Shown here piece by piece: positions 2,602 through 35,709 of a DNA stretch of 39,091 bases. The notes beneath the pieces were generated by a model, which had not been told where the DNA came from, made no database searches, and saw nothing but the letters and a program-made list of their open reading frames with translations. The position numbers and the translations under genes were made by a program. Position 1 is the stretch's first letter; each line of letters begins with the position of its first letter. The stretch lies in NCBI RefSeq assembly GCF_000620145.1, contig NZ_JHVM01000012.1:123055-162145 (forward strand), read 5' to 3'. Source of the stretch: Deefgea rivuli DSM 18356. Its GTDB lineage: Bacteria > Pseudomonadota > Gammaproteobacteria > Burkholderiales > Chitinibacteraceae.

Positions 2602-2650
2602 GGGTATTTACTTGTGGCCTTTTATCAATAAAGCCTGCGATTGAATACCC
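2602..2650. repeat. 49-bp palindromic repeat, copy 1
   Basis: Starts GGGTATTTACTTG and ends GATTGAATACCC, with an inner pairing GGC...GCC. It begins 8 bp after the terminator T-run and touches the stop codon of the small minus-strand gene (stop at 2651-2653) with no gap. Both outer arms carry the TATT/AATA variant. Confidence 0.9.
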
Positions 2651-2917
2651 CTATTCATAATCTGGCAGGCCATAGGCCGTGAGGATGAAATCGTGCTGTG
2701 TGCCGTCCATGACATCGGCGACAAAAGGCTGCAATTGCGCCACGCGTGCCGCGTCGAGCATATAGGATAATTTCATTTCTGGATCAGGCTTGTCTTGCTC
2801 AGCAGCGAATAGGCTATATAAAAACTCGACTGACACCGTTTCGCTCAGCGGTAAGTGGCCGATAAAGCCGCCTTCCATGTCTTTTTCCCACACTTCAATG
2901 GCACGAACGATTTTCAT
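2651..2917 (-). CDS. Conserved hypothetical protein, 88 aa
   Basis: I do not recognise this protein with confidence. It starts MKIVRAIEVWEKD and is acidic, soluble-looking, without signal peptide or membrane helix. The frame is open upstream to 3043, but the ATG at 2917 is preceded by AAGGA at good spacing and avoids overlapping cobS, so I chose it. It contains DPEMKLSYML near the middle, faintly like DUF7683-type proteins; I would not rely on that. It lies 38 bp after cobS on the same strand and may be co-transcribed, although a REP-like hairpin lies between. Its stop codon abuts repeat copy 1. Confidence 0.65.
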   Translation of the reverse strand: MKIVRAIEVWEKDMEGGFIGHLPLSETVSVEFLYSLFAAEQDKPDPEMKLSYMLDAARVAQLQPFVADVMDGTQHDFILTAYGLPDYE

Positions 2918-2936
2918 ATTTTTTCCTTGAACTGGC

Positions 2937-2960
2937 TGTCGGCTTGAAAGCCGACCTACG
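2937..2960. repeat. REP-like palindrome at the cobS 3' end
   Basis: The stem GTCGGCTT-GA-AAGCCGAC followed by CTACG reads CGTAGGTCGGCTTTCAAGC on the minus strand. This resembles a short palindrome I recall as scattered in several proteobacterial genomes. It supplies the TAG stop of cobS (2956-2958). Confidence 0.7.
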
Positions 2961-3708
2961 ATATGGCGCCGATTATACCTGTGCCGAGCACAGTAATGAG
3001 TAGCAATGCGCTTTCGCTGACTTCGATCCCCGCACCCAAACAATCGCCAGTTACGCCGCCAAGCTTGGCTTTAAGCCATTGCCGATAAGCCAGTAGCACC
3101 AGCGGTGCCGCCAATAGCGCGGGGCTAAACCAAGCTGACGTGGCGAATAGCACGCTCCACCAAAATATCGCGACTTTGCTGCTGTTTTTCCATGCAAATT
3201 GCTCGGCCATGCCCGGCGCTAAAGCCGGCAGCGTTTGCCAAATAAACACGCCGCTACGTGCCCACGCTGGAATCAGCAGCAGCGCCGCCCATTGTTGTTG
3301 CCGTATCAGCAGCATCAGCAACACGAGTTTGAGCAGGCATTGAATAATTAGCGACAGTACGCCAAAGCTACCCAGATGCGGATCTTTCAGTACCGCTAAA
3401 AATCGCGCCGGATCACGATGCGCCGCGCCAAGCCCATCGCTCATATCGGCCAGTCCATCCAAATGCAGACCGCCAGTAATCCAAGTCCAGAGCAAAAGGC
3501 ACAGGATTGCGGCCAACCACGGGTCGAGCTTGGCGCTGAGGATGGCAATGCCAAATAACAGCGTACCAATGATCGCACCGACCGCTGGAAACCAGCCGAC
3601 TGATTTCGCCAGCAATGACGGTTCAAAGTCGTGGATTTGCGGCGTGGGGATGCGCGTTAAAAATTGCACCGCCAGAATCGGCTCGCGCCAGTCGAAAAAC
3701 TGCGTCAT
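2956..3708 (-). CDS. cobS: Adenosylcobinamide-GDP ribazoletransferase (cobalamin synthase)
   Basis: A 250-residue polytopic inner-membrane protein with the CobS hallmarks FLTRIPTP near the N-terminus and GGLHLDGLADMSDGLGAAHRDP around residues 80-100, the acidic metal-binding region. It joins adenosylcobinamide-GDP to alpha-ribazole (or its phosphate), the last assembly step of B12. Its start overlaps the end of the upstream phosphatase gene by 4 bp (ATGA), so the two are probably translationally coupled. The stop codon comes from a REP-like palindrome. Length is normal for the family. Confidence 0.95.
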   Translation of the reverse strand: MTQFFDWREPILAVQFLTRIPTPQIHDFEPSLLAKSVGWFPAVGAIIGTLLFGIAILSAKLDPWLAAILCLLLWTWITGGLHLDGLADMSDGLGAAHRDPARFLAVLKDPHLGSFGVLSLIIQCLLKLVLLMLLIRQQQWAALLLIPAWARSGVFIWQTLPALAPGMAEQFAWKNSSKVAIFWWSVLFATSAWFSPALLAAPLVLLAYRQWLKAKLGGVTGDCLGAGIEVSESALLLITVLGTGIIGAIS

Positions 3709-4316
3709 GGTGCGTCGGGCAGTGTATTGCTGATGCCGAGTAACATCGGCGGCCAGTTTTCATCCCACCACAAGGTCACGCAGCCTGCGGGCGCAAGCCA
3801 AAATTGGCTGTGACGCGCGGCGGGCAAATTCAGTGTTGCAAGTAAAATCGCTTTGATCGTGCCTTGATGCGCGATGAGTACGCGGTGCTCAGCTTCGCCG
3901 CTGGCAAACCAAGCGTTTAGCGCAGTATGGATGCGGCGAGAAAAATCAGCCCAGCTTTCGCCATCGGGTAGCGGATGTTGATCTGGATCTTGCTGCCATA
4001 AATTCCAAGCGGTATGTTCCGCTGCGCTCCATGATTGCTTGGGTTTACCGTCAATACTACCCATAACTATTTCATTAAAGCCACGTTCTAAATGCAATGG
4101 AATATTCAAAGCCATTGCCGCATCCAGCGCAAAATCGGCACAGCGCGCCAAGTTCGAGCTGGCAATCGCATCGACTGGATACGCCGACAATTCACGCCAA
4201 CGCGCCGCCATTTGTTCACGGCCTAGGCTGGAGAGTGGCGGATTGCTCTGACCAAAAATTGCCTCATTTGCGCCTTCGGCTACGCCGTGGCGAATTAAGG
4301 TTAAGCGAAATGCCAT
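3705..4316 (-). CDS. cobC: Histidine phosphatase, probable alpha-ribazole phosphatase (CobC-like)
   Basis: A 203-residue protein of the histidine phosphatase superfamily. The phospho-histidine motif LIRHGVAEG is at residues 7-15, and the second active-site His lies in VLIAHQGTIKAIL near residue 150. Position between cobT and cobS, with a 1-bp overlap with cobT and a 4-bp overlap with cobS, points to dephosphorylation of alpha-ribazole-5'-phosphate in B12 lower-ligand assembly. The superfamily is catalytically broad, so the specific role rests on context. Confidence 0.82.
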   Translation of the reverse strand: MAFRLTLIRHGVAEGANEAIFGQSNPPLSSLGREQMAARWRELSAYPVDAIASSNLARCADFALDAAMALNIPLHLERGFNEIVMGSIDGKPKQSWSAAEHTAWNLWQQDPDQHPLPDGESWADFSRRIHTALNAWFASGEAEHRVLIAHQGTIKAILLATLNLPAARHSQFWLAPAGCVTLWWDENWPPMLLGISNTLPDAP

Positions 4317-5371: not shown

Positions 5372-5472
5372 AGTGCTTCCCGTTCAGAATCGTTCGACTC
5401 TAACGGCTGATGGCGGCGGGGGCAAGTGGATAGATTAACAAGATCGAGCAAACGAGCGACTACGGAGGGGAT

Positions 5473-6191: not shown

Positions 6192-7151
6192 ATGCGAAAA
6201 ATACTGATTGTGCGCCTGTCTTCGATGGGCGACGTAATTCATCAAATGCCCGCCATCACTGATTTGGCGCGCGCTTATCCGGACGCGGTCATTGACTGGG
6301 TCGTTGAAGAAGGTTTTGCCGAGCTGCCTTTGTTACATCCGGCGATTCGCCGCGTGATTCCTGTTGCGCTACGGCGTTGGCGTAAATCGCCATTCTCAGC
6401 CGCAACCCAAGCCGAATGGGCGAAATTTAAAACTGAAATTCGCGCCTGCCGTTACGATTTGATTTTGGACGCGCAAGGCTTAATCAAAAGCGCCGCCGTT
6501 GCGCGGATGACTTGTGGTCCTGTGGCGGGTTTTGATCGACATTCTTGCCGCGAAGCACTGGCGAGTTTTGCTTATCACCGTACTTACCCGATTGCTAAAA
6601 ATCTACACGCCATCGAGCGCAATCGACGTTTGACCGCCGCCGCCAATGGCTATGCCTTGCTGGGTGAAATGGATTATGGCTTAAAAGTGCCACTGCAAGA
6701 ATTGCCGTGGCTGGGCGATACGCCCTATGTGGTGATGCTCACTGCGACCAGCCGTGCGGATAAAGAATGGCCTGAGGCGCACTGGATCGCACTCGCGCAG
6801 CGTTGCATCCATGCTGGAATGCGGCCTGTGTTCCCTTGGGGCAGTGCGAATGAGCAGCAGCGCGCGCAGCGTTTGGCCGCCGCAGTGCCATTGGCTATCG
6901 TAACGCCGAAATTAAGCTTAAGCGATGCGGCGATCCTGCTGGCGGGTAGCCGTATCGTCGTTGGCGTCGATACTGGCTTGGCGCATTTGGCCGCTGCGGT
7001 GGCCGTGCCCGTCGTCGCGATCTTCTGCGCATCGGAGCCAGAACTCACTGGCGTGCGCGCCGCGACGTTTGCGTTGAACTTGGGTGGTAATGGTAAGCCG
7101 CCAAGCGTCGATCAAGTGTGGGATGCTGTTGTTTCTGGACGTTTGCCGTGA
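6192..7151 (+). CDS. waaC: Lipopolysaccharide heptosyltransferase I
   Basis: A 319-aa glycosyltransferase family 9 protein beginning MRKILIVRLSSMGDVIHQMP, the typical N-terminus of WaaC/RfaC. LDAQGLIKSA near residue 95 and a C-terminal nucleotide-sugar-binding region with VGVDTGLAHLAAA near residue 255 also fit. It adds the first L-glycero-D-manno-heptose to Kdo2-lipid A at the inner membrane. It overlaps waaA through GTGA at 7148-7151, so the two are translationally coupled. The start is set by conservation, since no ribosome-binding site is visible. Confidence 0.94.
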   Translation: MRKILIVRLSSMGDVIHQMPAITDLARAYPDAVIDWVVEEGFAELPLLHPAIRRVIPVALRRWRKSPFSAATQAEWAKFKTEIRACRYDLILDAQGLIKSAAVARMTCGPVAGFDRHSCREALASFAYHRTYPIAKNLHAIERNRRLTAAANGYALLGEMDYGLKVPLQELPWLGDTPYVVMLTATSRADKEWPEAHWIALAQRCIHAGMRPVFPWGSANEQQRAQRLAAAVPLAIVTPKLSLSDAAILLAGSRIVVGVDTGLAHLAAAVAVPVVAIFCASEPELTGVRAATFALNLGGNGKPPSVDQVWDAVVSGRLP

Positions 7152-8431
7152 TTGCACGCCGCCTGTATCGGCTGGCGCTGTGGCTGGTGTTTCCGCTGAT
7201 TTGGCTGTATTTACTTAAACGCAGTCAAAAACAGCCGGCGTATCGAAATTTTTGGTTAGAAAGGCTGGGGTATTACTCGCTAGCCATGCAGCAAAAATTC
7301 ATTCAGTCAAATACCTCTATAAAACCAATCTGGCTGCACGCCGTATCGGTTGGTGAAATGCGCGCCAGTGCGCCAGTGATTGCAGCGCTGCGCCAACAAT
7401 ATCCGACACGTTCATTCTTGCTGACGTGCATGACGCCAACGGGCCGCGAAACTGCGCAAGAATTATTCGGCGATTTCGCGACGATTGTGTTCCTACCTTA
7501 CGATTACCCATCCGCGATACGCCGCTTTTTACGGACATTTAAGCCGCAGTGCGGCGTGGTGATGGAAACTGAAATCTGGCCGAGTTTAATCCATGAATGC
7601 GCTGATGCTGGAGTTCCGCTGGTGCTGGCCAATGCGCGGCTGTCTGAAAAATCGTATCTGGGCTATCGCAAGGCGCTGTGCTTGATTCGCCCTGCGATGG
7701 CGCGTTGGACACAAGTCTTGGCACAGTCGCCGGCTGACGCTGAACGCTTGGCTTTGCTCGGCGCTATTACGCCGCAAGTAATGGGCTCGGTGAAGTTTGA
7801 TAATCAGCCCGACGAAGCTCAAATTGAGTTGGGACAACGCTGGCGTGCGAAGTTTGGGGCGCGAGCGACTGTGCTATTGGCATCGAGCCGCGACGGCGAA
7901 GAAGCGGAGTTGCTCGCGCAATGGTCGACATTATTCCCACAGAACGCACCTCTGCTGATTATCGTGCCGCGTCATCCGCAGCGTTTTGATGTGGTGGCGA
8001 GTTTGATTGAAAATTCAGGTTTGCATCTGTTGCGCCGCAGTCAGTGGCAAGATGATTCGCTCGTCGATGCCGACGTGTTGCTGGGCGACAGCATGGGCGA
8101 AATGACCGCGTGGTTTAGCTGCGCTGATATCACGATCATGGGCGGCTCGTTGCTGCCGTTTGGCAGTCAAAATTTCATCGAAGCCTGCGCGGTGGGTTGC
8201 CCAGTTTTGCTTGGCACACATACATATAATTTCGCAGCCGCAAGCGAGGCGGCAATTGCTGCGGGCGCGGCATGGCAAGCGCCGAACTTGGCCGAACTCT
8301 GGCCAGAAATTCCCCGTCTTTTGAGTGATTCTAGTCGCCAACAGCAAATGCGTACTGCGGGCAAAACCTTTGCTCAAGCGCATCGCGGTGCGACGGACTT
8401 GCTGGTGAAATCATTGGGTATTTACCTGTAG
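7148..8431 (+). CDS. waaA: 3-deoxy-D-manno-octulosonic acid (Kdo) transferase
   Basis: A 427-aa WaaA/KdtA. An N-terminal membrane anchor (about residues 5-22) is followed by a GT-B fold with WLHAVSVGEMRASAPVI, LLTCMTPTGRETA, METEIWPSLIHEC with the catalytic Glu, LANARLSEKSYLGY, and a GGSLLPFGSQNFIEACAVG sugar-nucleotide region. The frame is open to 7118, but GTG at 7148 overlapping the waaC stop is the natural start. It transfers Kdo to lipid IVA. The last four codons (Gly-Ile-Tyr-Leu) and the TAG stop lie inside 49-bp repeat copy 2. Confidence 0.94.
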   Translation: MIARRLYRLALWLVFPLIWLYLLKRSQKQPAYRNFWLERLGYYSLAMQQKFIQSNTSIKPIWLHAVSVGEMRASAPVIAALRQQYPTRSFLLTCMTPTGRETAQELFGDFATIVFLPYDYPSAIRRFLRTFKPQCGVVMETEIWPSLIHECADAGVPLVLANARLSEKSYLGYRKALCLIRPAMARWTQVLAQSPADAERLALLGAITPQVMGSVKFDNQPDEAQIELGQRWRAKFGARATVLLASSRDGEEAELLAQWSTLFPQNAPLLIIVPRHPQRFDVVASLIENSGLHLLRRSQWQDDSLVDADVLLGDSMGEMTAWFSCADITIMGGSLLPFGSQNFIEACAVGCPVLLGTHTYNFAAASEAAIAAGAAWQAPNLAELWPEIPRLLSDSSRQQQMRTAGKTFAQAHRGATDLLVKSLGIYL

Positions 8432-8464
8432 GCCATTGTTAGTAATTCCTCTGGTTGAATACCC
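8416..8464. repeat. 49-bp palindromic repeat, copy 2 (overlaps waaA stop)
   Basis: Starts GGGTATTTACCTGTAG and ends TTGAATACCC. From 8417 it encodes the waaA C-terminus GIYL and stop (TAG at 8429-8431). It ends 48 bp before the bluB start. Confidence 0.9.
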
Positions 8465-9199: not shown

Positions 9200-9248
9200 A
9201 TGTATATAAATCTAAGCATTGTTAATTAGTCGCTACAGCTATATACCC
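9200..9248. repeat. 49-bp palindromic repeat, copy 3 (overlaps EamA stop)
   Basis: Starts ATGTATATAAAT (first two bases diverged from GGG) and ends AGCTATATACCC, exactly 49 bp. On the minus strand it supplies the last two codons (Gly-Ile) and TAG stop of the EamA gene, in the same frame as in waaA. Confidence 0.8.
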
Positions 9249-10114
9249 TTACGATTCATCCCAATCCCATACATCACCAAACCCAGCAAAATTAATCCCG
9301 TGCCGATGATTTCTTGGCGCTGGATGATTTCGTGATTGAAGGTGTGGCCGAGCCAGAGCGAGGTGGCGGGGGTGATGAGTGAGATCAGTGCAACGCTGAT
9401 TGGGCGGCATTCGCGGATCAGCCAGTAATACAAACTGAATGCAAAGACCGAGCCGATGCTGGCGAGGTAAATGAGGGCGGCAGCGGCGCGTAGTGGGATG
9501 GTTTCTGCGGTGGGCGCGCCAGCGATCAGCCAAAATAGCGTGCTGAGTATGGCGCAAATCAGCAGTGCGCCGACGTTGACGGCCAGTGGCGATTGTCCGC
9601 CCGCATGGCGTTTGAGCAGCACCGCTGCGCCCGATTGCAAAAACACCGCGATCAGCAGTGCGGCGATGCCGATCAGCCCGTCGGGTGCGAGCGTGATGCG
9701 TTGGCTAAATAAAGTCAGTAAGCCCGCCAAGCCAAGGCCGCAGGCGATGTAATCAAATTTTTGCAGTGGCGCGTGCAAAATCCAGCGCGAAAATAGCGCG
9801 GTTGCCAGCGGCACGAGGCCAAACAACACAGCGACTAAACCCGAGCTAATAAATTGCGACGCCCAAAAAGTGCACAACATCGACAAGGACGTCGCGACGC
9901 CTGCAATCGCATAGGCGGTCAGTGCAGCAGCGTGAAGCGGCAAGGATTGTCGTCGCCAAGCTAACAGCATGAGTGCGAGCAGCGCGGCCAGTGTAAATCG
10001 CGTCATCAGCGCAAAGGTAAACGGCAGGCCTGTTACGCCCCATTTAATGCCGAGCGCCGTGGTGGACCAAACCAGAATCAGCGTGAAATAGGCCGGTGAA
10101 ACGCGTGAAATCAT
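9239..10114 (-). CDS. EamA/DMT-family transporter
   Basis: A 291-aa protein with about ten predicted membrane helices in two homologous halves, starting MISRVSPAYFTLILVWSTTALGIKW, typical of drug/metabolite exporters of the EamA type. Substrate unknown; relatives export amino acids, metabolites or drugs. Its start overlaps the PliI-like gene by 4 bp (ATGA). The final residues KGI and stop fall in repeat copy 3. Confidence 0.88.
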   Translation of the reverse strand: MISRVSPAYFTLILVWSTTALGIKWGVTGLPFTFALMTRFTLAALLALMLLAWRRQSLPLHAAALTAYAIAGVATSLSMLCTFWASQFISSGLVAVLFGLVPLATALFSRWILHAPLQKFDYIACGLGLAGLLTLFSQRITLAPDGLIGIAALLIAVFLQSGAAVLLKRHAGGQSPLAVNVGALLICAILSTLFWLIAGAPTAETIPLRAAAALIYLASIGSVFAFSLYYWLIRECRPISVALISLITPATSLWLGHTFNHEIIQRQEIIGTGLILLGLVMYGIGMNRKGI

Positions 10115-10563
10115 TTTTTCCTAGCGAGGCGTTTAAGCTCGGCAATCGGATCGTCTTTCGGCGCTAAATCGCTGATCGATTGAGTGAGTTTGAGCGTGCG
10201 ATTTTGCCAGCCAAATACATCGGCACTGAGGTAGCCGCCACTTCCCGCCGAGCGAATCACGACAACGACTTCGCCAATGCCATCGCCATTCAAATCAGTA
10301 TTAAGGACGCGCTCAACGCTGCCGTCGCGTGGATGAATTTGGCCAGTAATAAAATCATCTAGCGGGAAATCAGGGTTCGCACCGCCGTAGAGCCGAATGG
10401 CGTAGCTGCCAATGCTGCGCGGCTCATTTTCACCTTCTGATACTTGAATCAGGCTGTGATTATCGGGAAGTTGGATTTGTTTAATAAATCGGGGTATTTC
10501 AGCGTAGCCATTCATTGATATGGCTAGTGCAAATATACTGCCAATCATTAGTTTTGAGCTCAT
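10111..10563 (-). CDS. Probable periplasmic inhibitor of I-type (invertebrate) lysozyme, PliI-like
   Basis: A 150-aa exported protein with signal peptide MSSKLMIGSIFALAISMNGYA. The mature part has EPRSIGSYAIRLYGGANPDFPLDDFITG (residues about 47-74) and DLNGDGIGEVVVVIRSAGSGGYLSADVF (about 91-118). From memory these match PliI-family lysozyme inhibitors, with a SGGY segment like the inhibitory loop. It would protect the peptidoglycan of a bacterium living on or near invertebrates. Overlaps of 4 bp on both sides place it inside a coupled operon. A search against the PliI family would settle the assignment. Confidence 0.66.
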   Translation of the reverse strand: MSSKLMIGSIFALAISMNGYAEIPRFIKQIQLPDNHSLIQVSEGENEPRSIGSYAIRLYGGANPDFPLDDFITGQIHPRDGSVERVLNTDLNGDGIGEVVVVIRSAGSGGYLSADVFGWQNRTLKLTQSISDLAPKDDPIAELKRLARKK

Positions 10564-13573: not shown

Positions 13574-13576
13574 TAT

Positions 13577-15027
<1,451 letters not shown>

Positions 15028-17637: not shown

Positions 17638-19047
17638 CTAAACGCGTAAATCACTGGCGAAATCGGCTTCGGTTTGGGCGATTAATTTCCCTGAGCGGCA
17701 AGCATGGGTAAATTTCTCAAAATCGCGTTCGACTTGATCGGCATATACGGCGCTGTAGCTGCTGATCGCTTTGGCAAACGCGTCGCCTTTACCTAAATAA
17801 CCCGAAATCTCTGGTGCGAGACCGCCGGCTTTGGCGTGCGCACGCGCCAAAACCCAGCCGCATAGTTCGGCATATTCGAGCAAAATTTCGCTGCTATACA
17901 TTTCCACTTCGGGGCTGAGCTTCATATCGCGTAATTGGCGGAAGTAAAAATGTCGCCCCGATGGGCTCGTTGCCCAACCCAGGAAAATATCACTGGCCAC
18001 TTGCATTAAGCGCTGGCCTTCGACAACGCGGCGGCCTTGCTGTTGATACGGCGTGGCGCTGCCGGCGTATTGCGCCAGTACCGACGGGCGCGCTTCTTTG
18101 ATCTGCAAAAACAGCGGCTGTTCATGCACATCAGTGAGCAGCATGACGAGGCAGCGCGTACCCACACTGCCCACGCCGACCACTTTGTAGGCTGTGTCTT
18201 GATATTGATAGCGATTAAGCAGTATTTTCCGGTCGGCCACCATCGTGGTTTGATAATCGCGCATCATTTTGTCGATGCGTTGTTGCCAATCGTCTTGCTG
18301 CAGCCACTGATCGTCGGCATCAAAGAGCATGTGATGGTCTTGCAAATGAAACACCGAAGGCAGGCTGTCTCTGATCCGCCAACCGTCGGCGGTTTTTTCA
18401 GCTAATTTGGGCAGAATGTCTTGATGCGTGCGGCCCTTGGCTTTATGAATTCCGCGCTCGATCCTTTGCCGCGTGGCGGTAGATTCTGCGTGGGCTAATA
18501 GCGTTTCAAAGCTAATTTTTTCATACCAAATATCCAACTCGCCCATTAGGGTATAGCGCTGCATGTGTTTTTGGTAGCTGGCTGCAACAATATACGCCGC
18601 TTCTTTGCCAATTTTATCGCCATGATTTAAATGCCGTGCCGCCACCATAAAACTGGCCGCCAAGCGTTTGATATCCCATTCCCAAGGCCCGGGATGCGTT
18701 TCGTCAAAATCATTAATCCCAAACAGCAGTGTGCGTTCTGGCGAGGCAAAACCGCCGAAATTCATCAAATGGCAATCGCCGCAAATCTGCTGGCGCAAGC
18801 CACTGATCGGCGTGCTGGCCAGATCATGGGCTTGCAATAGCGCCGTGCCGCGATAAAACGCAAACGGTGAAGCGAGCATTCGCCCGTAACGCAGCGGCAC
18901 CAAACGCGGCAAACGACCCTCGGACGATTGCATCAGCAAATCAATCGGATCGCGCTGGTGCTGCGCTTGCTCGGCATGGCTTTTGCGTGAGCAGGTATCG
19001 CGCAGTGCGCGGCCACGTTGTTGGCGTTCTTGAAGTCGGCTGGTCAT
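17638..19047 (-). CDS. DUF2252 family protein (kinase-like fold)
   Basis: A 469-aa DUF2252 protein. ATG at 19047 is chosen because AAGGA precedes it; the frame is open to 19101. Visible motifs are GDCHLMNFG (90-98) and INDFDETHPGPWEWDIKRL (111-129), which look like the catalytic loop and metal-binding Asp of phosphotransferases of the protein-kinase-like clan. GVGSVGTRC (291-299) and LQIKEA with K317 look like the glycine loop and ATP-lysine. The two sets are in reversed order compared with ordinary kinases. Substrate unknown. No operon partner is evident. Confidence 0.88.
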   Translation of the reverse strand: MTSRLQERQQRGRALRDTCSRKSHAEQAQHQRDPIDLLMQSSEGRLPRLVPLRYGRMLASPFAFYRGTALLQAHDLASTPISGLRQQICGDCHLMNFGGFASPERTLLFGINDFDETHPGPWEWDIKRLAASFMVAARHLNHGDKIGKEAAYIVAASYQKHMQRYTLMGELDIWYEKISFETLLAHAESTATRQRIERGIHKAKGRTHQDILPKLAEKTADGWRIRDSLPSVFHLQDHHMLFDADDQWLQQDDWQQRIDKMMRDYQTTMVADRKILLNRYQYQDTAYKVVGVGSVGTRCLVMLLTDVHEQPLFLQIKEARPSVLAQYAGSATPYQQQGRRVVEGQRLMQVASDIFLGWATSPSGRHFYFRQLRDMKLSPEVEMYSSEILLEYAELCGWVLARAHAKAGGLAPEISGYLGKGDAFAKAISSYSAVYADQVERDFEKFTHACRSGKLIAQTEADFASDLRV

Positions 19048-26176: not shown

Positions 26177-26261
26177 TTTTTCATGGATAGTATTTAGCGA
26201 TTGCAGTGGGACTGAAGATGATTACCTATTCAGTTTGAATAAAGCGGTTGTTAGATGAAAT

Positions 26262-26291
26262 AAAAGCCAGATCGGAAGATCTGGCTTTTTT
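26262..26291. terminator. Terminator after the efflux operon (AGCCAGATC stem)
   Basis: Stem AGCCAGATC/GATCTGGCT, loop GGAA, A4 before and T6 after; the stem is identical to that at 21531-21562. Confidence 0.93.
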
Positions 26292-26304
26292 GTTTTGTAA
26301 TGTA

Positions 26305-26353
26305 GGGTATATTAATCTGGGTTTTATTAATTAAAGCATGTACTAATATACCC
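26305..26353. repeat. 49-bp palindromic repeat, copy 5
   Basis: Starts GGGTATATTAATCTGGG and ends TACTAATATACCC. It lies 20 bp beyond the stop of the minus-strand site-2 protease gene. Confidence 0.92.
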
Positions 26354-26373
26354 ATGATATTGGATGTGAAAGA

Positions 26374-27480: not shown

Positions 27481-27497
27481 GATGTTGGCTCTGTGTT

Positions 27498-27546
27498 GGG
27501 TATATTGATGTAGCTATTTTTTAGTAATGCCTGTATCGATATACCT
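27498..27546. repeat. 49-bp palindromic repeat, copy 6
   Basis: Starts GGGTATATTGATGTAGC and ends TGTATCGATATACCT. The TTGAT and ATCGA segments pair through a wobble. It lies between the HAD gene stop and the protease gene start. Confidence 0.9.
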
Positions 27547-27620
27547 GAATAAATGGGTGATTTCGTTTTGCTAAGAGAGCTAGATGATCAAACTCTAACC
27601 CGTCTGTTAGTCAACAAAGT

Positions 27621-28130: not shown

Positions 28131-28157
28131 TATGATTTGTATGTTTGATTTTTATCT

Positions 28158-28206
28158 GGGTATATCAATGTAGATTCTATTAAATAAGCCATAAATTAAT
28201 ATACCC
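28158..28206. repeat. 49-bp palindromic repeat, copy 7
   Basis: Starts GGGTATATCAATGTAG and ends AAATTAATATACCC. It ends 8 bp from the radical SAM stop and starts 27 bp before the HAD start. Confidence 0.92.
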
Positions 28207-28214
28207 TTCATTTT

Positions 28215-29696
28215 TTAAGCGTGTAGATGTAATGCCTGCCGTAATGGCGCAACCGTATCTGCTGCGGCTTTGGGTTTTTTCTGTTTTCCGGCGTAATCGC
28301 TTTCCAGTAATTCTGTCGTCGCTTGCGCCGACATGCCTTGCGTTTGCAGCCATTCACCCACCATTTTCGCCAATCGATCCAGCGCGATGCGGTGCGTGGC
28401 GTCGGTGTTTTGATAGAGCCAATCGGCGAATGCCATAAAGTTCGAAAACGGCGCGTCGCCCAATAGTACCGGCAGCGTATTGGCAAAACGCCCCGAATTG
28501 GCGACCAAATCCCAGTAGCGGGCAAAACGCACTAAGCGCTGCATCGTGGTGAAATCAATGTCGCGGTTGGCCAAAATCGTATACGGCGGGAAGGGGTCGT
28601 ACACCATGCCAAAATCGGCTGTGTGGCGAATAATCGGCGTACCGCGCAGGCGTTTTAAAATGCCAAATTGAATTTCATGCGGCTTGAGCGCGTACAGTTG
28701 ATCAAAACCTACGCCAAAACTAGCCACCGTTTCGCCAGGCAAGCCTGCGATCAAATCCACATGTAAATGCGCGTGCGAATTGTCGGTGAGCCAACGGATA
28801 TTCTCGGCGGCTTTTTCATTATTTTGCTTGCGACTGACGAGGCTTTGCACTTCAGGATTAAAACTCTGAATGCCGATTTCAAACTGCAAAGCGCCAGGCG
28901 GGAATTGCATAATGCCGTCTTTGAGCGCTTCGGGCAGATGGTCGGGGACGACCTCAAAGTGAGCGAACACCGGATCATTCGGATGCGCGGCGATTTTATC
29001 GAGGAAAAACTGCATGATGCGCAGGCTGGTTTTGATGTTCAGATTAAACGTGCGGTCGACAAATTTAAACAGCCGCGCGCCGCGCTGATACAGCGTTTCC
29101 ATCTCGGCCAAAAAGCGCTCCAACTCAAACGGCCACGCGGTTTTATCCAGCGCCGACAGGCAGAACTCACACTTAAACGGACAGCCGCGCGACGCTTCGA
29201 CATACAGCGTACGGTTTTTAATGTCTTCATCGGTGTACAGCGAGTAGGGCAGCTGCAAATCGTCGAGCTTGGCTTGCACGCCAACGTGGATTTTCATTAG
29301 CGGTTGCGGACCGTTCAAAATCTGGCGACACAGATCGGGCAACGTGATTTCGCCCCAGCCAGTGACGACAAAATCAGCGTCTTTGACGATGGTTTGCTCA
29401 GTCGTTTCGTACGACACTTCCGGCCCGCCGAGAATGATTTTGATCTCTGGCGCAACGCGTTTCAGCATCGCGACCAGCCGTGCCGTTTCTTCAACATTCC
29501 AGATATACACGCCAAAACCGATGATCTTGGGCTTTTTCGCCAGCAGTCGTTCGACAAACTCAGTCGTTTTACCGCCGATGACAAACTCGATGATTTCTGT
29601 TTGCTCTTGCAAATCGCCCATATTGGCCTGCAAATAGCGCAACCCGAGTGAGGCATGCGTGTAACGGGCGTTGAGCGTGGACAAAATGATCGACAT
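28215..29696 (-). CDS. Radical SAM protein with N-terminal B12-binding-like domain (DUF4080 type)
   Basis: A 493-aa protein. The N-terminal ~135 residues resemble a cobalamin-binding fold (MSIILSTLNARYTHASLGLRYL, KIIGFGVYIWNVEETARLV, KIILGGPEVSY). The radical SAM core has the 4Fe-4S Cys triplet CPFKCEFC (172, 176, 179), and a DUF4080-like C-terminal part follows. I do not see the DxHxxG cobalamin-ligating His, so cobalamin binding, if any, would be base-off without that His or lost. Substrate unknown. It ends 8 bp from repeat copy 7. Confidence 0.88.
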   Translation of the reverse strand: MSIILSTLNARYTHASLGLRYLQANMGDLQEQTEIIEFVIGGKTTEFVERLLAKKPKIIGFGVYIWNVEETARLVAMLKRVAPEIKIILGGPEVSYETTEQTIVKDADFVVTGWGEITLPDLCRQILNGPQPLMKIHVGVQAKLDDLQLPYSLYTDEDIKNRTLYVEASRGCPFKCEFCLSALDKTAWPFELERFLAEMETLYQRGARLFKFVDRTFNLNIKTSLRIMQFFLDKIAAHPNDPVFAHFEVVPDHLPEALKDGIMQFPPGALQFEIGIQSFNPEVQSLVSRKQNNEKAAENIRWLTDNSHAHLHVDLIAGLPGETVASFGVGFDQLYALKPHEIQFGILKRLRGTPIIRHTADFGMVYDPFPPYTILANRDIDFTTMQRLVRFARYWDLVANSGRFANTLPVLLGDAPFSNFMAFADWLYQNTDATHRIALDRLAKMVGEWLQTQGMSAQATTELLESDYAGKQKKPKAAADTVAPLRQALHLHA

Positions 29697-29877
29697 AAGA
29701 AAACCGGCAGCGGAGCAAAAACGCTATTTTACGGGTTTACGGCGTAAGGCGGGTGGGTGATTGCCTAATGGTGAGTTGTGCCAAATCACGATGTAAGAAA
29801 TCCCCACGCGCCAACGGCGGGGGGGGATCAAGTTGATGCTTTAACTCAGTTTGATGCGTGCTGAGTGTAGAGCCAGA

Positions 29878-31953
29878 TTACGGGTACAGCTTGAATGTCA
29901 CTACGCCAGCCATTGGATCAGCCGTCACGAGGTAAGTATTGTTTCCTTTTGGTGTGACAGTCAGTGCTTTGCCATTTTGAATAACAAACACGCCTTCTTT
30001 GGCCTCTTGATTAAGCTCGCGAGTGCTGAATTCTAGCGTGATCGGCGTTGCATATTGTTTGCATTCTGGCGCCCATGTTTCAAAGAACAGTTGCCCGTCG
30101 TTTAGCGCTGGTTTGCAGAATTCACGTGCAAAGCGATATTTAATCACGTTGCTTGGTGTATCCATCCACAGCTCGCCAGCATCGACTTTGGCTTTGGCGT
30201 AATCGAGGTGAGCTTGGTAACGTGCCAACGGTGCAGTTTCCCAATAGCCAGTATCAACGCTGTGCATGGTGCGCGTTGCCCAGCCGCCTTGATTGATGGC
30301 CGCATCGATGTGCAGATTGAGAATTTCACTGCCCATCGGGTAGAGCGACCATTTGCCATCGACGGTGAACAAGTCCCACTTAATGCGGTAAGCATTGATA
30401 AAGTCAGGTGGATTGATCCCTGCTGGCATCGTGGTGTAATCCACATTGCCATTATTGAGTAGATGCGAAGCACGACCACCTAAATACTGAGAGCTGTATT
30501 TCAGGAAGTTCGTCCCCGTCGACGATGCAGTATCGCTCGGCCAAACAAAATAGCTGGCTTTGTAGCCATCTAGATTGGCGGCAATATCCGCCGCAGAGCC
30601 ATTCAATTGCGCTTCCAGCTCAGCATCGTTGATATAAGGATCAGGATGATTGCGGCTATGACTGATGATTTCATGGCCATTAGCGATCATTTGTTTGGCT
30701 GCCGCCCAGTGTTGCGGTGAGCAATTGCCAGTAATGACCGCAAAACCCGCCACCAGACCACGGTTTTTCAGCTCTGGATCCATAATTTTGATATACGGAT
30801 CTGTGCCAACTGGCATCGAGCAGTAATCATCATGCACCAAGGAATACGCGCCTTTCGCGCCGTTTTTCCAAGTGGTGGTTTTTACTGATGTGACGAAAGC
30901 ATGTGAGCCTGGCGTTGGGCTTGCCGATGCAGTGGGCGTTGGTGCTGGTTTTGATTTCCATTCTCCACGATGGCAAGCGCCGTCAATAGTGATAACCCAC
31001 TCCCAAATGTAGCCCGGCTGCGATGGTGGTGTAGTGCCTTGTGGACCTGATGAGCAAGGTGGTGTTGTTTGGTCTGGCGTTGGCGAAGGTGTTGCCGTCG
31101 TTAAATTGATTGCACCCAAGTCTTTCCACGGACCCCATTGATCCGCAGCATTCGGCGTTTGGCCTTGTACCCACCATTTGGCTTCAAAAGTGCGGCCATT
31201 GTGGCTAACGCGTTGACCGGCGGTGTAAACCGTAGTGCTATTCCATGCGCCAATGCTTGAGATTGGGGTTGCAGTCGGGGTGGGCGTTGGCGTCGTAGTC
31301 GGTGTTGCTGTCGGGCTTCTAGTTGGGCATACGCCTGGTACTACAAACTCAACATCCCAAATGGCGGCATCGTATGTGAGTGTGGTTCCGTTATCAATCG
31401 GCCGAGTTGCTGGTGTACTGGTGTGTGTCACTTTCGCAGTGAATCGTGCCCAACCTTGGTAGTGACTATATATGTAGTTGGAAGGACGAATGTGCGTACC
31501 TGCTTGATACACCGCACCGAAAGTCCAGTAGGGGGTTTGATCAGGATTTGGAATGTTGGTGCATGGGCCATATTTACGCACTTGGCTTTCGAGCACCGTC
31601 ACTTGCGTGGGCGACGTTGAAGGCGTTGGGGTTGGCGTTGGATTGATCGTTGGTGTCGGTGGATTACTCACAGTCCAACTACTGCACGTGCCGAGGTTTT
31701 TCCACAAAGTCGGGCTGGCAGCCGGATTCCAATTCGCGCCGACATAGGCGGTATGGGCGGTAAGGGCTTGGTAGTCAATATTGTTATAAGTGACGGTTTT
31801 GCCGCTGGCGTAGCTAGCGCCTTCGGCCCAAGGTTCAAACGGATTGCAAACTGCCGTGGCGGATGCCGTGTTGGCCAGCGACAGTAAACCTGTCGCAGCG
31901 AAGCTAAGCAGCAATGCTTTTTTTGCACCTGTGAAGTGCTGAGTTTTTATCAT
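29878..31953 (-). CDS. Secreted modular chitin/polysaccharide deacetylase with chitin-binding domains
   Basis: A 691-aa exported protein. Signal peptide to about residue 33 (NTASATA); CBM5/12-like module 35-91 (WAEGASYASGKTVTYNNIDYQA); Pro/Thr linker; an unrecognised domain 118-209 with two Cys; second linker; second CBM5/12-like module 235-283 (WNSTTVYTAGQRVSHNGRTFEAKWW); third linker; a short Cys-containing piece 300-335; a NodB-type polysaccharide deacetylase domain from about 355 with metal motifs HDD (374-376) and SHSRNH (431-436); and a C-terminal beta region. Most likely it removes acetyl groups from chitin outside the cell. Monocistronic by appearance. Confidence 0.88.
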   Translation of the reverse strand: MIKTQHFTGAKKALLLSFAATGLLSLANTASATAVCNPFEPWAEGASYASGKTVTYNNIDYQALTAHTAYVGANWNPAASPTLWKNLGTCSSWTVSNPPTPTINPTPTPTPSTSPTQVTVLESQVRKYGPCTNIPNPDQTPYWTFGAVYQAGTHIRPSNYIYSHYQGWARFTAKVTHTSTPATRPIDNGTTLTYDAAIWDVEFVVPGVCPTRSPTATPTTTPTPTPTATPISSIGAWNSTTVYTAGQRVSHNGRTFEAKWWVQGQTPNAADQWGPWKDLGAINLTTATPSPTPDQTTPPCSSGPQGTTPPSQPGYIWEWVITIDGACHRGEWKSKPAPTPTASASPTPGSHAFVTSVKTTTWKNGAKGAYSLVHDDYCSMPVGTDPYIKIMDPELKNRGLVAGFAVITGNCSPQHWAAAKQMIANGHEIISHSRNHPDPYINDAELEAQLNGSAADIAANLDGYKASYFVWPSDTASSTGTNFLKYSSQYLGGRASHLLNNGNVDYTTMPAGINPPDFINAYRIKWDLFTVDGKWSLYPMGSEILNLHIDAAINQGGWATRTMHSVDTGYWETAPLARYQAHLDYAKAKVDAGELWMDTPSNVIKYRFAREFCKPALNDGQLFFETWAPECKQYATPITLEFSTRELNQEAKEGVFVIQNGKALTVTPKGNNTYLVTADPMAGVVTFKLYP

Positions 31954-32018
31954 GTCTCTTCCATCCAGTTTTGTATGTATTCAGCTTGCACCGGCATCAA
32001 GGCTGAATTGATTTTCTA

Positions 32019-32067
32019 TGGTATTGCCCGGTAAATCTTTTTGGTTATGCTCTAGCGGCATATACCT
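32019..32067. repeat. 49-bp palindromic repeat, copy 8 (diverged)
   Basis: Starts TGGTATTGCCCGGTAA and ends GCGGCATATACCT, again exactly 49 bp. Arms and ends fit the family but the centre is degraded, so this is the least certain copy. Confidence 0.6.
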
Positions 32068-32417
32068 TTGGTAGTGTTGTTTTTACTCTATCTCTTTGTT
32101 GGCGGCGAATTTCGCGTCTGCGCTCGTTTTTAAATGCGCTTATTGTCGTTCCAGCAGAGCAGTATGATTTAATTTCAGCTGGGCGTTGCCACTATGCCAG
32201 CGGGATAAGTGGGTGTAAATATTCTGCGGCATTGATTTCATTTATGGGGGAGTTAAGTTTTATTTTTCATTTAAAATCAATGATTTGTCTTCATTTTGAT
32301 TTGTGTCATTTTTCATGAATGGTGACATTAGTCTGGTGATACACAGCAAACAGTCATCTTGCTGGCGCGGCGCAATTCAAGGTTTAATTTTTGCGGTGTT
32401 GAGCGCGTCAATTCTTC

Positions 32418-32445
32418 GAGGCTAGGGTCAATAGACCCTAGCTTC
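32418..32445. promoter_or_regulatory. Strong palindrome GCTAGGGTC-AATA-GACCCTAGC
   Basis: Perfect 9-bp arms, 12 bp with a wobble and outer pairs, separated by 4 nt. There is no T-run on either side in the correct orientation, so it is not an ordinary terminator. It lies about 90 bp beyond the lysR stop. It could be an operator, an mRNA 3' end structure or another dispersed repeat. Confidence 0.5.
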
Positions 32446-32499
32446 AAAAAATCTATATTTTTGGATAATGCGGATTGGGTAATGTGTCACTTGCTTGAT

Positions 32500-32548
32500 G
32501 GGTATTCCTATCTAGGCTTTTATTGTAATGCTCTGTAGGTGAATACCC
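32500..32548. repeat. 49-bp palindromic repeat, copy 9 (encodes lysR C-terminus)
   Basis: Starts GGGTATTCCTATCTAGGC and ends GTAGGTGAATACCC. On the minus strand, codons 32515-32547 inside it encode the last 11 residues of the LysR protein and the TAG stop. Confidence 0.92.
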
Positions 32549-33423
32549 TTGATGTAAGTGTTGGCTTGCTCGCTAATCCATGCGCTAAAATCAGCGATTT
32601 TGCCGCTGCTCGCACTGCGATCCGGCCAGACTAGCCAGTAGGGATATTGGTAGGGCACGCAAATATCGGTGATTTGCACTAGCGTGCCGTTGGCGAGGTG
32701 CGATTCAACCAGCGAGGTACGCGCCAACATAATGCCGTGCCCCAGCCGAGCGGCTTCGAGTTCCAGATTGCTGTCGTTGTAGGAATACGTTGGCGTCGGC
32801 CGCCAATCGGCCAGCCCTGCAGCTTGGCACCACGTTGCCCACGGTATGGCGGGATTATGGATGATCGTCGCTTTTTTAATGTCATTGGGCGACGTTGGCC
32901 GCGGTTGGTAGTGGGGCGCAGCGACGGCGATGTGATAATCATCCATCAAGTGCACTTGTTTCATGCCATCCCAGCCGCCCGCACCCATGCGCACCGCCAT
33001 ATCGAGCAAGCCGTTATTCATTTCCTCAAACCCCAAACCTGCGCGCAGGTTGACGGTGTATTGCGGAAATTTAGCCTTAAAATCAGGCAAGCGCGGCACG
33101 AGCCAGTTGAGCGCAAACGATGGCACCACGCCAATGGTGATGTCATTGGGTTTGGGGCGAGTCAGTACGCGTTGCGTTGCGTCCTGCATATCGGCCAATG
33201 CACCACGCACGCGCAGTGCGTAAATTCGGCCTTCTTCTGAGAGTTGCAGCCGCTTTCCTTCGCGCAAAAATAAGGAGAGCCCAAGAAAATCTTCTAAAGC
33301 GCGCAATTGATGGCTAATTGCGCTGTGCGTCACATTCAGCGATTCGGCGGCTTTGACCACACTACCCAAGCGGGCGACGGCTTCAAATGCGCGCAGGGCG
33401 CTTAAGGGCGGGATTTGGCTCAT
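32512..33423 (-). CDS. LysR-family transcriptional regulator (GcvA-like)
   Basis: A 303-aa LysR regulator. The N-terminal winged helix-turn-helix (LSALRAFEAVARLGSVVKAAESLNVTHSAISHQLRALEDFLG, split across residues 8-50) has the LxxLRxFxAxAR pattern of the GcvA group. A substrate-binding domain runs from about 93 (DITIGVVPSFALNWLVPRL). The last 11 residues, GIHLQSITIKA, are encoded by repeat copy 9 and replace whatever C-terminus existed before. Its target is unknown; the divergent DUF2917 gene is a natural candidate. Confidence 0.93.
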   Translation of the reverse strand: MSQIPPLSALRAFEAVARLGSVVKAAESLNVTHSAISHQLRALEDFLGLSLFLREGKRLQLSEEGRIYALRVRGALADMQDATQRVLTRPKPNDITIGVVPSFALNWLVPRLPDFKAKFPQYTVNLRAGLGFEEMNNGLLDMAVRMGAGGWDGMKQVHLMDDYHIAVAAPHYQPRPTSPNDIKKATIIHNPAIPWATWCQAAGLADWRPTPTYSYNDSNLELEAARLGHGIMLARTSLVESHLANGTLVQITDICVPYQYPYWLVWPDRSASSGKIADFSAWISEQANTYIKGIHLQSITIKA

Positions 33424-33476
33424 AGATTCCTTAGCAAGACGGTATAAAAATGCTTAAGTAATAAATTCTTGTTGAG

Positions 33477-33536
33477 TTTGTGGGAGCGGGCTTGCCCACG
33501 AAGCTGGGTATTCGCGGGCAATTTCGCGTTCACAAA
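33477..33536. repeat. REP-like element resembling the Pseudomonas putida REP
   Basis: TGTGGGAGCGGGCTTGCCCA starts the element. TTGCCCACGAA (33492-33502) pairs with TTCGCGGGCAA (33511-33521) with one mismatch, and outer TTTGTG/CACAAA closes it. The GTGGGAGCGGGCTTGCCC core is what I recall for pseudomonad REP sequences. Confidence 0.75.
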
Positions 33537-33556
33537 TTTTATTTCTGCATTAGTTT

Positions 33557-33575
33557 ATGTGAATTTTACTCACAT
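33557..33575. promoter_or_regulatory. Palindrome ATGTGA-N7-TCACAT between lysR and the DUF2917 gene
   Basis: Perfect 6-bp arms around ATTTTAC, in a divergent intergenic region where a LysR or other dimeric regulator could bind. It resembles a CRP site but the spacer is 7 rather than 6 nt. Confidence 0.35.
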
Positions 33576-33643
33576 CAAAGCAGAAAAATCATCAGCTACA
33601 GGCTTTTATTTATTGGATATAGTGAATTTCCTATGCCAAGCGG

Positions 33644-33928: not shown

Positions 33929-34030
33929 ATCAGGCGTTGCAATATTCATGGGATATTGTGAAATGTCATGTCACCGTCATCAGATTGCGGTATAAATCGC
34001 GAGCTGATTTGGCTATACAAGGTTTTGCTG

Positions 34031-34249: not shown

Positions 34250-34354
34250 AGCATCTGTAGCTGACAGTTTCAAGTGAACAATTGCGGTGAATCATGCGGC
34301 AGCGTTTAGACCGCTGGGTTCGCAAAATCACAGGCACTTTGTTATGGTGTGACC

Positions 34355-35404
34355 ATGTCGATCGCTAACTTTATTCTCAGCTCATGGCGCGTGCTTAAAA
34401 ACCCGCTGTTTTTATACCAAAATCATCGCCAGATTCATGCTTTACGCGTGATGCTGGCGTTTGCTTGCGGCGGTGCGATTGATATCGTGTTCGGCATTCC
34501 TTATGGCAGTTGGACGCTGATTACGATTGTTGTGCTGATGGGCAATGTGCAGACTCAGGGCGACGTGGCGAAAAAATCGGGCCAAAGGGTACTGGGTACA
34601 TTAATTGGCGCGCTGGCTGGTTTGCTGGCGGTGGCTTTGTATTTGGTATCGCCTTGGCTGGGTTTTGCTTGGCTGGTGCTGGCAATTTTTCTGAGCGCCT
34701 ATCATGCGCTGGGGCCTGCTGGTGATGCTGCAGTGATTGCTGGCGTTACGCTCGTTATCGTGGGCGGCATGGGCGATTCTGTATTGGAAGAATCACTCTG
34801 GCGTTTGCTTAATGCAATGATAGGCGCGTCGATTGCGTTTACTTTTGCATCTTTGTTGCCATCGCGGGCGATAGATCGTTGGCGATTTTTATTGGCAGAA
34901 AATTTGCGCGAGGCGGCGTTTGTCTATTGCCAAATGGGGCAGCGTAGCTCGGCCGATGTCGAGGCGGCCTTGTATCGTTTTAATGTCAGAATGATCAAAA
35001 TGCGCACCTTGATTGCATCAGCAGCCAAAGAATGCGAGCTGCAAACCGTGCCATTTGAGCAAGTGCAGCGCTGCCAGCGCACGATGCTGATTATTTTAGA
35101 GCGAATGTGTGTGGATGTGCAGGCGGCACCGCAGCGGCCACTTCCGCCGCTGCAAGCTGGGATTTTCCGACGTTTAATACGCTCCGCACGTGGCTTGCGG
35201 TTTTTGCAGCGCCATTTGCTGGATAAACCTGCCGCCGCGACCCATATCGCACCGGTCGAATTGGCTGATTTTCTAACGCTGGAATTGAGCCAGACCATTG
35301 ATCGCATTTACGACGAATTAAATTTCTTGCTACCGAGTATTTTGCGCATCCAACAGCCGCTGGCCTTATTACGTCCAGCAGCGCTGCGCTATTTGCGCAA
35401 GTAA
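34355..35404 (+). CDS. FUSC-family inner-membrane protein
   Basis: A 349-aa protein. About six membrane helices in the first 160 residues include the FUSC-type segment RVMLAFACGGAIDIVFGIPYGSWTLITIVVLM and QTQGDVAKKSGQRVLGTLIGALAG, split across residues ~32-90. A long cytoplasmic helical C-terminal half follows. This is the half-size form related to aromatic-acid exporters (AaeB) and YccS. Substrate unknown; no adaptor gene is adjacent. An alternative GTG start lies two codons upstream. Confidence 0.85.
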   Translation: MSIANFILSSWRVLKNPLFLYQNHRQIHALRVMLAFACGGAIDIVFGIPYGSWTLITIVVLMGNVQTQGDVAKKSGQRVLGTLIGALAGLLAVALYLVSPWLGFAWLVLAIFLSAYHALGPAGDAAVIAGVTLVIVGGMGDSVLEESLWRLLNAMIGASIAFTFASLLPSRAIDRWRFLLAENLREAAFVYCQMGQRSSADVEAALYRFNVRMIKMRTLIASAAKECELQTVPFEQVQRCQRTMLIILERMCVDVQAAPQRPLPPLQAGIFRRLIRSARGLRFLQRHLLDKPAAATHIAPVELADFLTLELSQTIDRIYDELNFLLPSILRIQQPLALLRPAALRYLRK

Positions 35405-35416
35405 GCCGGATCGTAT

Positions 35417-35647
35417 TTATTCAGCGCTAGCTTCAGCCACTACGTGGATTTCTTCGCCGAGAACTTTGACGACCATGCCGGGGCGGATTTTGGCGGTTTT
35501 GCGGCTTTCAAGCACGCCGTCGACTTCAACCAAGCCTTCGGCGACCATCATTTTTCCCACGCCACCCGATGGCGCAATACCTAGGGTTTTTAGTAAGTCG
35601 CAGAGCGCGATGTATTCATTACGAAGTGGAAATGTTTGGATTGCCAT
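35417..35647 (-). CDS. RNA-binding S4-domain protein (YbcJ-like)
   Basis: A 76-aa protein made of a single S4 domain: FPLRNEYIALCDLLKTLGIAPSGGVGKMMVAEGLVEVDG, split across residues 6-44, then RKTAKIRPGMVVKV. Small S4 proteins of this group bind structured RNA, often ribosomal. It starts 13 bp downstream of repeat copy 10 in its own reading direction. Confidence 0.9.
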   Translation of the reverse strand: MAIQTFPLRNEYIALCDLLKTLGIAPSGGVGKMMVAEGLVEVDGVLESRKTAKIRPGMVVKVLGEEIHVVAEASAE

Positions 35648-35660
35648 TTTGTGTCCTTAT

Positions 35661-35709
35661 AGGTATTGAGTTATAGCCATTTTATAGTATGGCTTGGTGG
35701 GATATACCC
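35661..35709. repeat. 49-bp palindromic repeat, copy 10
   Basis: Starts AGGTATTGAGTTATAGCCAT and ends GGGATATACCC; the inner pairing GCCAT/ATGGC is perfect. It fills the gap between the maf stop (4 bp away) and the S4-domain gene start (13 bp away). Confidence 0.85.

Follow-up and report, generated by a model that had tools for sequence, protein, structure and literature searches.

What keeps a loosely palindromic sequence at exactly 49 bp, copy after copy, along a stretch of bacterial chromosome? The question is raised by 39,091 nucleotides of Deefgea rivuli DSM 18356 (hereafter the window; C8:123055-162145 of genome G000, an assembly of 3,711,979 bases in 23 contigs). An initial annotation of the window counted ten such 49-mers and offered three readings: selection on an RNA or cruciform hairpin, a precisely spaced protein site, or a mobile repeat resembling repetitive extragenic palindromes (REPs) or miniature inverted-repeat transposable elements (MITEs). 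All ten were recovered where it had placed them, with weight-matrix scores of 31-51 bits, and three further sites scoring at least 16 bits, at 7268, 10492 and 18549, had been missed. The evidence set out below suggests that each copy is probably a dyad-symmetric DNA site for a putative sequence-specific protein complex.

Sites were scored with a symmetric weight matrix, the reversed matrix serving as control; the cut-off was 16 in the first matrix scan, 18 in the genus-level, codon and placement analyses, and 14 for counting an orthologue. Statistics for the D. rivuli genome refer to 439 kb of its 3.71 Mb (the window plus contig C1:1-400000), those for its genus (Deefgea, g1 in the database grouping) to 1,207 kb from 7 genomes, and those for genus g6 to 340 kb from 5 genomes; copies within the g1 set are related by descent and are not independent. 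The 439-kb sample contained 87 sites of at least 16, with none of at least 14 for the reversed matrix, and 90 sites of at least 18 when the matrix was pooled over the genus. The exact pattern GGGTAT-N37-ATACCC occurs 188 times in the whole D. rivuli genome, against 0 for the reversed control, confirming that the repeat extends far beyond the window. Because 31 of the 188 exact copies fall within the sample, the genome-wide total is about 550 when scaled by exact copies and about 760 when scaled by length. Site density is about one per 3-6 kb, and regular spacing along the chromosome was not seen (coefficient of variation 0.98).

The span of the palindrome is fixed. In the 439-kb sample the outer words GGTAT...ATACC were found 55 times at the 49-bp geometry and 0-2 times at each other span from 22 to 122 bp. 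A half-site matrix applied to 1.2 Mb of the genus gave 214 pairs at 49 bp, 2 at 47, 2 at 50 and none at the remaining spans between 44 and 55 bp, so that the constant length noted in the window holds among relatives as well; visual inspection of the 15 top-scoring free half-sites listed turned up one 48-bp variant. When inverted 5-mer pairs were sought de novo without restriction on span, GGTAT/ATACC at 49-bp spacing gave the strongest signal in the window (11 observed versus 0.04 expected), and it also ranked first in each of the seven g1 and g6 samples examined. It did not rank first in a 27-kb sample of genus g11, and the search found no convincing similar fixed-span palindrome in six other genera. 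Taken together, these data exclude chance as an explanation of the motif. A short-span inverted CTTTTG/CAAAAG pairing was observed in G009 (18-bp span, 8 copies in 80 kb; L067-L070) and is of a different kind.

The half-site consensus is GGGTATATCCATGTAGGCATTATTA, with a nearly invariant GTAT at positions 3-6, A15 and its neighbours further in, TT at 20-21 and an A/T centre; the information content of the whole motif is 32.6 bits. The most conserved positions are 3-6, 15, 20-21 and those that mirror them, and the g6 dialect keeps the same outer words and spacing around a different interior (GGGTATTGCCCTGTAGGCCATTTTC). Across 51 intergenic pairs of kept orthologues, identity was 0.84 at position 15, 0.70 and 0.81 at positions 20 and 21, 0.43-0.67 at the other inner positions and 1.00 at positions 3-6, the last value being partly built in because kept orthologues had to score as sites. 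Half-sites are rarely found alone: 299 scoring at least 14 lay in full sites, 39 were free and 8 appeared in the null. Position-specific constraint and fixed half-site spacing, as expected of a protein-binding site, were thus both observed, favouring the second reading of the initial annotation. Judging from the matrix, GTAT, TAG and the centre lie about 10 bp apart and would present one face of the helix. The flanks of the D. rivuli sites, particularly the intergenic ones, are A/T-rich on both sides for about 10 bp. Because A and T are mixed on either side, the TT after CCC that had been taken to orient the element does not do so; the mixed flank past the site, without a T run, does agree with the earlier remark that this is not an intrinsic terminator.

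Among 61 genomes (D. rivuli and 60 relatives), the pattern is abundant in g1 (7/7 genomes, 100-188 copies), g6 (5/5, 175-291) and g11 (2/2, 144-154). The other 47, eight further genera of the same family among them, have 0-3 copies, and in 369 genomes drawn from the class only D. rivuli itself has more than 2. The strict pattern gave 0 matches in a named genome collection, which may omit records near the window's genome, a looser pattern gave 0 in viral contigs, and a search of plasmid DNA with one gene as query returned no match.

Genic and intergenic classes rest throughout on gene calls made with a simple custom script. By these calls, site density per kb in D. rivuli is 2.65 in convergent gaps, 0.80 in tandem gaps, 0.31 in divergent gaps and 0.06 in genes; of gaps of at least 45 bp, 26/43 convergent, 33/160 tandem and 5/45 divergent ones hold a site. 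The genic share is 21/90 in D. rivuli and 40/84 in g6. Sites abut stop codons: site ends within -3 to +8 nt of a stop codon numbered 77 in g1 versus 21.4 ± 4.0 in within-gap shuffles, 30 versus 8.4 ± 2.7 in D. rivuli alone and 26 versus 9.5 ± 2.9 in g6.

Many sites occupy orthologous places across species and genera, with diverged interiors and unchanged length. Retention was counted for sites with reciprocal-best flanking or containing genes in the sampled stretches. Within g1, the sites kept were 30/30 in G004, 20/25 in G006, 11/17 in G001, 11/17 in G003, 2/5 in G002 and 1/1 in G005; within g6, they were 11/14 in G036, 9/10 in G034, 10/11 in G028, 1/2 in G011 and 1/2 in G020. One window site, at 7268, is entered as lost in G006 through a gene-start difference, and comparison of the locus finds it present. 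When G001 and G003 were aligned by flanks, 22 of 23 aligned G001 sites (26 in total) were kept in G003, the sole exception being a gap at an edge, and 24 of 24 aligned G003 sites (29 in total) were kept in G001; no clean presence or absence of 49 bp was found among these pairs. The 90 copies of D. rivuli have a mean pairwise identity of 0.55, and a single pair exceeds 80%. One divergent-gap site, C1:241940-241988, is unlike most in that its interior is nearly unchanged in the G004 and G006 orthologues, perhaps reflecting a second constraint.

Copies inside genes are maintained through synonymous codon choice. Coding sequences contained 61 sites of at least 18 in g1 (978 kb) versus 2.0 after synonymous shuffling, and 37 in g6 (257 kb) versus 2.8. 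The clearest view of a single genic locus is given by waaA, in which the site lies in frame at the same codons in D. rivuli, six other g1 genomes and five g6 genomes, although 49 bp is not a multiple of three. Its GGG is a glycine codon in all 12 but G028, and the amino acids between the edges vary. Seven waaA sequences without the site, two of them from g11, have a loop shorter by about 5-8 residues at this place, suggesting that the site arose with or in the longer loop and not by plain insertion of 49 bp.

A transposon family marks the same sites. Where G001, G003 and G005 carry a single copy of a site, G002 has two, separated by a 277-bp element whose ends are inverted repeats. The family (element B) measures about 140-360 bp between recognised ends of the form GGC.ATGTTCAGATT, with interiors in several variants; it includes C1:82419-82693, 321444-321714 and 325730-326002 in D. 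rivuli, where the loci are L119-L148, and L149-L178 in relatives. An 8-bp target duplication was seen in 4 of 13 copies inspected (D. rivuli C1:325730, D. rivuli C1:321444 with one mismatch, and two in G003), and a 10-bp distance from site edge to element tip is recurrent. An inverted-repeat search of the D. rivuli genome gave 37 ends, and 30 loci were read (L133 and L134 being tandem copies of one element). Every element with both ends recognised (12/12) has a site at a set distance from one end, 10 bp in 11 cases and 9 bp in one. The 11 one-ended elements comprise L128 and L145 with a site at 10 bp, L126 with a decayed site (score 4.8) at 10 bp, L124, L140, L141, L144 and L146 with a site near the other end by eye, and L125, L135 and L139 with no site within the stretch inspected. 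The 30 loci read in relatives yielded 21 distinct two-ended elements, including L158 of G013 (a member of another genus); 19 of them lie 9-11 bp from a site, and the other two, L167 and L174, have none; of seven one-ended loci, L154, L164 and L172 have a site at 9-10 bp and L149, L150, L151 and L170 have none on the tested side.

Altogether 31 of 33 two-ended elements lie 9-11 bp from a site. With one site in about 5 kb, placement at this distance is estimated to arise by chance on the order of once in a thousand. Transposons that read a protein-bound target, such as Tn7, which inserts at attTn7, and the res hunters, typically insert at a fixed distance from it; the landing of element B 10 bp away suggests that the sites are occupied in living cells, and the element may serve as a natural reporter of that occupancy. 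Element-B ends were found in D. rivuli, 6/6 g1 relatives, 3/5 g6 relatives and 1/8 genomes of other genera. The last is G013, whose sole element, L158, is also 10 bp from a site, inside an acquired-looking stretch: its contig C3 (76.8 kb) has four sites (24.2, 22.4, 21.0 and 35.3) within about 7.3 kb and no site of at least 14 outside that cluster. The stretch with the four sites and the element (26156-33594, about 7.5 kb; L179-L182) lies beside an IS200-like reading frame by eye, and looks like DNA acquired from a site-bearing relative.

Two arrays were also observed, site-element-site-element-site at L133 (D. rivuli C3, about 227864-228606) and site-element-site in G002 (C19, about 511100-511370). 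The duplicated site carries with it about 10 bp of the sequence flanking it at either edge, so that about 69 bp are duplicated around an element that otherwise makes 8-bp duplications. At contig breaks, the starts of D. rivuli C11 (L128:3-206) and C4 (L125:1-101), what look by eye like ends of an IS110-type transposase gene lie near element-B ends; Pfam returned 0 families for the 63-aa piece of L128 that resembles the C-terminus of such a transposase.

Could the palindrome itself be the object of selection, as an RNA or cruciform hairpin? The arms were reported to co-vary, and in part they do. Over 137 g1 intergenic copies, 8.76 of 18 inner pairs were formed versus 7.79 expected (z 5.6, the copies being related and not independent), and the D. 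rivuli intergenic copies alone (n 59) gave 8.92 versus 8.29 (z 2.4). Between intergenic orthologues, 62 pairs were altered on both sides and 38 of these still pair, alongside 152 one-sided changes; some copies are near-perfect hairpins, such as C1:30091 with 20/24 pairs. The excess, however, is small and confined. It is absent from gene-internal g1 copies (z -1.9) and from g6 (z -0.4 intergenic, 0.7 genic), reached z 1.9 in 63 selected G034 sites, and leaves 15 of the 18 inner pairs formed in no more than 58% of g1 intergenic copies. Co-variation of a stem in all classes of copies, as expected of an RNA element, was therefore not observed, appearing weakly in g1 intergenic copies only. There is no U-tract, no Rfam family matched the window at gathering score, and genic copies are held by codon choice. 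Hairpin selection is consequently very improbable as the principal constraint. The modest tendency to remain palindromic could be caused by selection for equal half-sites, by template switching in near-palindromes or by an additional RNA role. A different proposal takes the site as a protein roadblock or boundary at gene ends, comparable to those formed by mTERF and Reb1, that halts RNA polymerase arriving from either direction. Such a role would suit the occupied convergent gaps and the strong abutment to stop codons, and terminator-like hairpins are rarer in tandem gaps over 60 bp with a site (13/33) than in those without (74/117). Against it stand the many genic sites and the convergent gaps, where hairpins are as common with a site (19/26) as without (15/23). 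By this crude terminator scan, a trade-off between sites and intrinsic terminators is weak in tandem gaps and absent in convergent ones, and we regard the roadblock as unlikely.

The sites might descend from a mobile palindrome of REP/MITE type, now fossil or slow, that a transposase copied in the ancestor shared by the three genera and that has since been decaying or put to use. Abundance in three genera only, information beyond what is needed, joint duplication of the site and about 10 bp of adjoining sequence on either side of element B (in G002 and in the C3 array), and a REP-like position next to stop codons (PMC3733652, in the sections available) would all fit such an origin. REPs are described there as placed similarly, near stop codons and in convergent gaps, so that placement alone decides neither origin nor role. 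Copies at orthologous positions with changed interiors and constant length, maintenance at codon level, a waaA loop longer by 5-8 residues and not by 49 bp, the single D. rivuli pair above 80% identity among 90 copies and the lack of clean presence/absence between G001 and G003 all speak against it, making an active REP or MITE a poor description of the present state. High copy number near gene ends is shared with REPs and their REP-associated tyrosine transposases (RAYTs), but neither a cognate RAYT nor differing insertion places were found: the sole Y1_Tnp match in the genome (C4:241318; L036:1294-1791) has best site-like scores of 17.3 and 13.4 in its 3.2-kb locus, the former just above the cut-off of 16 and below the 18 used later. 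As to a target-site duplication of the 49-mer itself, pooled flanks revealed only A/T richness, copies not having been searched individually. A mobile origin is unlikely on this evidence. A tag for a competence receptor, kept by biased uptake and recombination in the manner of DNA uptake sequences (DUS), would account for hundreds of copies in permissive places, some genic and many at orthologous positions, and for the interior dialects of genera. DUS are denser than one site per 3-6 kb, and we know of no DUS parallel for a 49-bp dyad. Near-perfect short words were not found here, the copies being very degenerate (the mean identity given above) in comparison with DUS words of 10-12 bp that are mostly intact. 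Deefgea does belong to the order Neisseriales, and DUS are known in Neisseriaceae (PMC3630211, available text); even so, an uptake tag appears distinctly unlikely.

The observations thus support a long, rigid, dyad-symmetric site that selection maintains and that a transposon family, at the least, recognises, and binding of a host protein would be its simplest explanation. Several points weigh against this interpretation. The binding protein is putative, and no candidate emerged from the analysis. The 32.6 bits of the motif far exceed the approximately 12 bits that would suffice to specify about 750 positions in 3.7 Mb; such an excess is easier to reconcile with spread by copying than with a simple regulator site. 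Placement behind stop codons and in convergent gaps matches that reported for REPs (PMC3733652, in part), the arms co-vary to some extent in Deefgea intergenic copies (the 38 of 62 doubly changed pairs), the A/T richness of the flanks is faint inside genes, and element-B ends are absent from G011, G028 and both g11 genomes, though sites are present there. Conservation of position is also incomplete. Retention reached just 11/17 in G001 and in G003, the sites at 32019 and 32500 were both matched to one single G004 site, and the shorter loop of site-less waaA runs counter to a simple reading of positional conservation. With BLAST-aligned flanks, 19/25 sites were kept each way between D. rivuli and the more distant G004, the remainder being 6 and 5 gapped alignments and one substitution loss; some of the gapped alignments are clearly misaligned, because the orthologue comparison finds the site there.

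In the binding model that we favour, two inverted 24-bp half-sites at a fixed distance would be read from the same helix face, GTAT near the edge, TAG one turn inward, and then the A/T-rich centre. The complex would require both half-sites at the exact spacing, as might a dimer of two-headed subunits or a tetramer that bends or wraps DNA. Selection would keep copies where genes are least disturbed: immediately downstream of stop codons and in convergent gaps, rarely in divergent ones, and within some genes through the choice of codons. Element B would take its bearings from the site or from the protein bound there, inserting one helical turn (10 bp) outside. As for the putative role, chromosome organisation or a gene-end boundary may be the most likely, ahead of DNA uptake. 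Tentatively, then, the Deefgea group may possess an undescribed chromosome-wide system: hundreds of dyad sites at gene ends and in selected gene interiors, many of them conserved in position over the lifetime of several genera, a predicted new protein with a large footprint, and transposons that read the complex from one turn outside.

The sites of the window illustrate these placements. At 2602..2650 (score 41.5), in a convergent gap, the site adjoins the stop codon of the 2651-2917 (-) gene, and a counterpart stands beside the same gene in G001-G006 and in the g6 genomes G036, G034, G011, G020 and G028. The waaA gene (7148-8431 +; lipid IV(A) KDO transferase) contains the in-frame site 7268..7316 (29.5), and its 3' end is overlapped by 8416..8464 (38.1). 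A convergent gap holds 9200..9248 (42.6), whose left end is an ATGTAT variant. The site at 10492..10540 (26.7), at the 5' end of a called gene (10111-10515 -), was found in G006, G004, G003 and G001 and not in G036, G011 or G020; that at 14939..14987 (47.6), in a divergent gap upstream of an MscS-like gene, was found in G006 and G004 and not in G003, G001 or G002. A weak site, 18549..18597 (27.5), lies within coding sequence (17638-19047 -) and has a G004 orthologue scoring 16.7.

Further along, 26305..26353 (43.1) occupies a convergent gap and 27498..27546, at 51.0, a tandem gap. Site 28158..28206 (41.0; found in G006) is separated by 8 bp from the stop codon of gene 28215-29696 (-), whose product is a B12-binding radical SAM protein that scores under the cut-offs of the families resembling it. 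Another tandem gap contains 32019..32067 (31.2), with diverged outer bases and a closely similar G004 orthologue. The 3' end of the 32512-33423 (-) gene is overlapped by 32500..32548 (36.4), and 35661..35709 (40.2), found in G006, G004, G003 and G001, is 4 bp away from the stop codon of gene 35714-36304 (-).

To our knowledge, few bacterial DNA sites are so long, so numerous and so geometrically rigid while being kept both between and inside genes over genus-level distances. Known dyads scattered over the chromosome and each bound by one protein family include parS, matS and the SlmA and Noc sites. The 49-bp sites resemble these in symmetry and dispersal and differ in being longer and more numerous, with a binder that is putative; we know of no chromosome-organising motif that matches them. 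The 49-mer offers a ready bait in the search for a new chromosomal protein of aquatic bacteria. Searches of open-licence papers, judged by titles and the starts of abstracts, listed no description of the 49-bp site or of element B.

REP/GTAG and CGTC palindromes with their RAYTs (Di Nocera 2013, PMC3733652, in the sections available) are likewise palindromic, high in copy number and located at 3' ends and in convergent gaps, with some in open reading frames. The 49-bp site departs from them in its fixed dyad of largely independent half-sites, the failure to find any linked RAYT, its many orthologous positions across genera and its maintenance at codon level, and teaches that REP-like placement need not indicate a mobile repeat. 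The DUS of Neisseriaceae (Frye 2013, PMC3630211, available text) share a genome-wide motif in permissive places, also genic, inverted pairs at gene ends and lineage dialects, but are 10-12 bp long and have no fixed 49-bp dyad; the same text reports no obvious DUS in the Laribacter, Lutiella, Pseudogulbenkiania and Chromobacterium genomes studied and does not mention Deefgea.

For element B there are precedents. Tn402/Tn5053 are res-site hunters (PMC7765201, abridged text), insertion sequence (IS) elements that insert in REPs are known (Tobes and Pareja 2006, PMC1525189, abridged text), and REPs and palindromes can serve as insertion targets, with REP dimers inside palindromic targets (PMC3733652, in part). 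Like these and Tn7, element B favours a particular position with respect to a site that is recognised. New here are short elements with inverted-repeat ends that lie 9-11 bp from a site and, in clear cases, are flanked by 8-bp target duplications; in contrast to the known cases, they insert 10 bp beyond one or the other edge of a 49-bp dyad that is itself dispersed, and the dyad stays intact.

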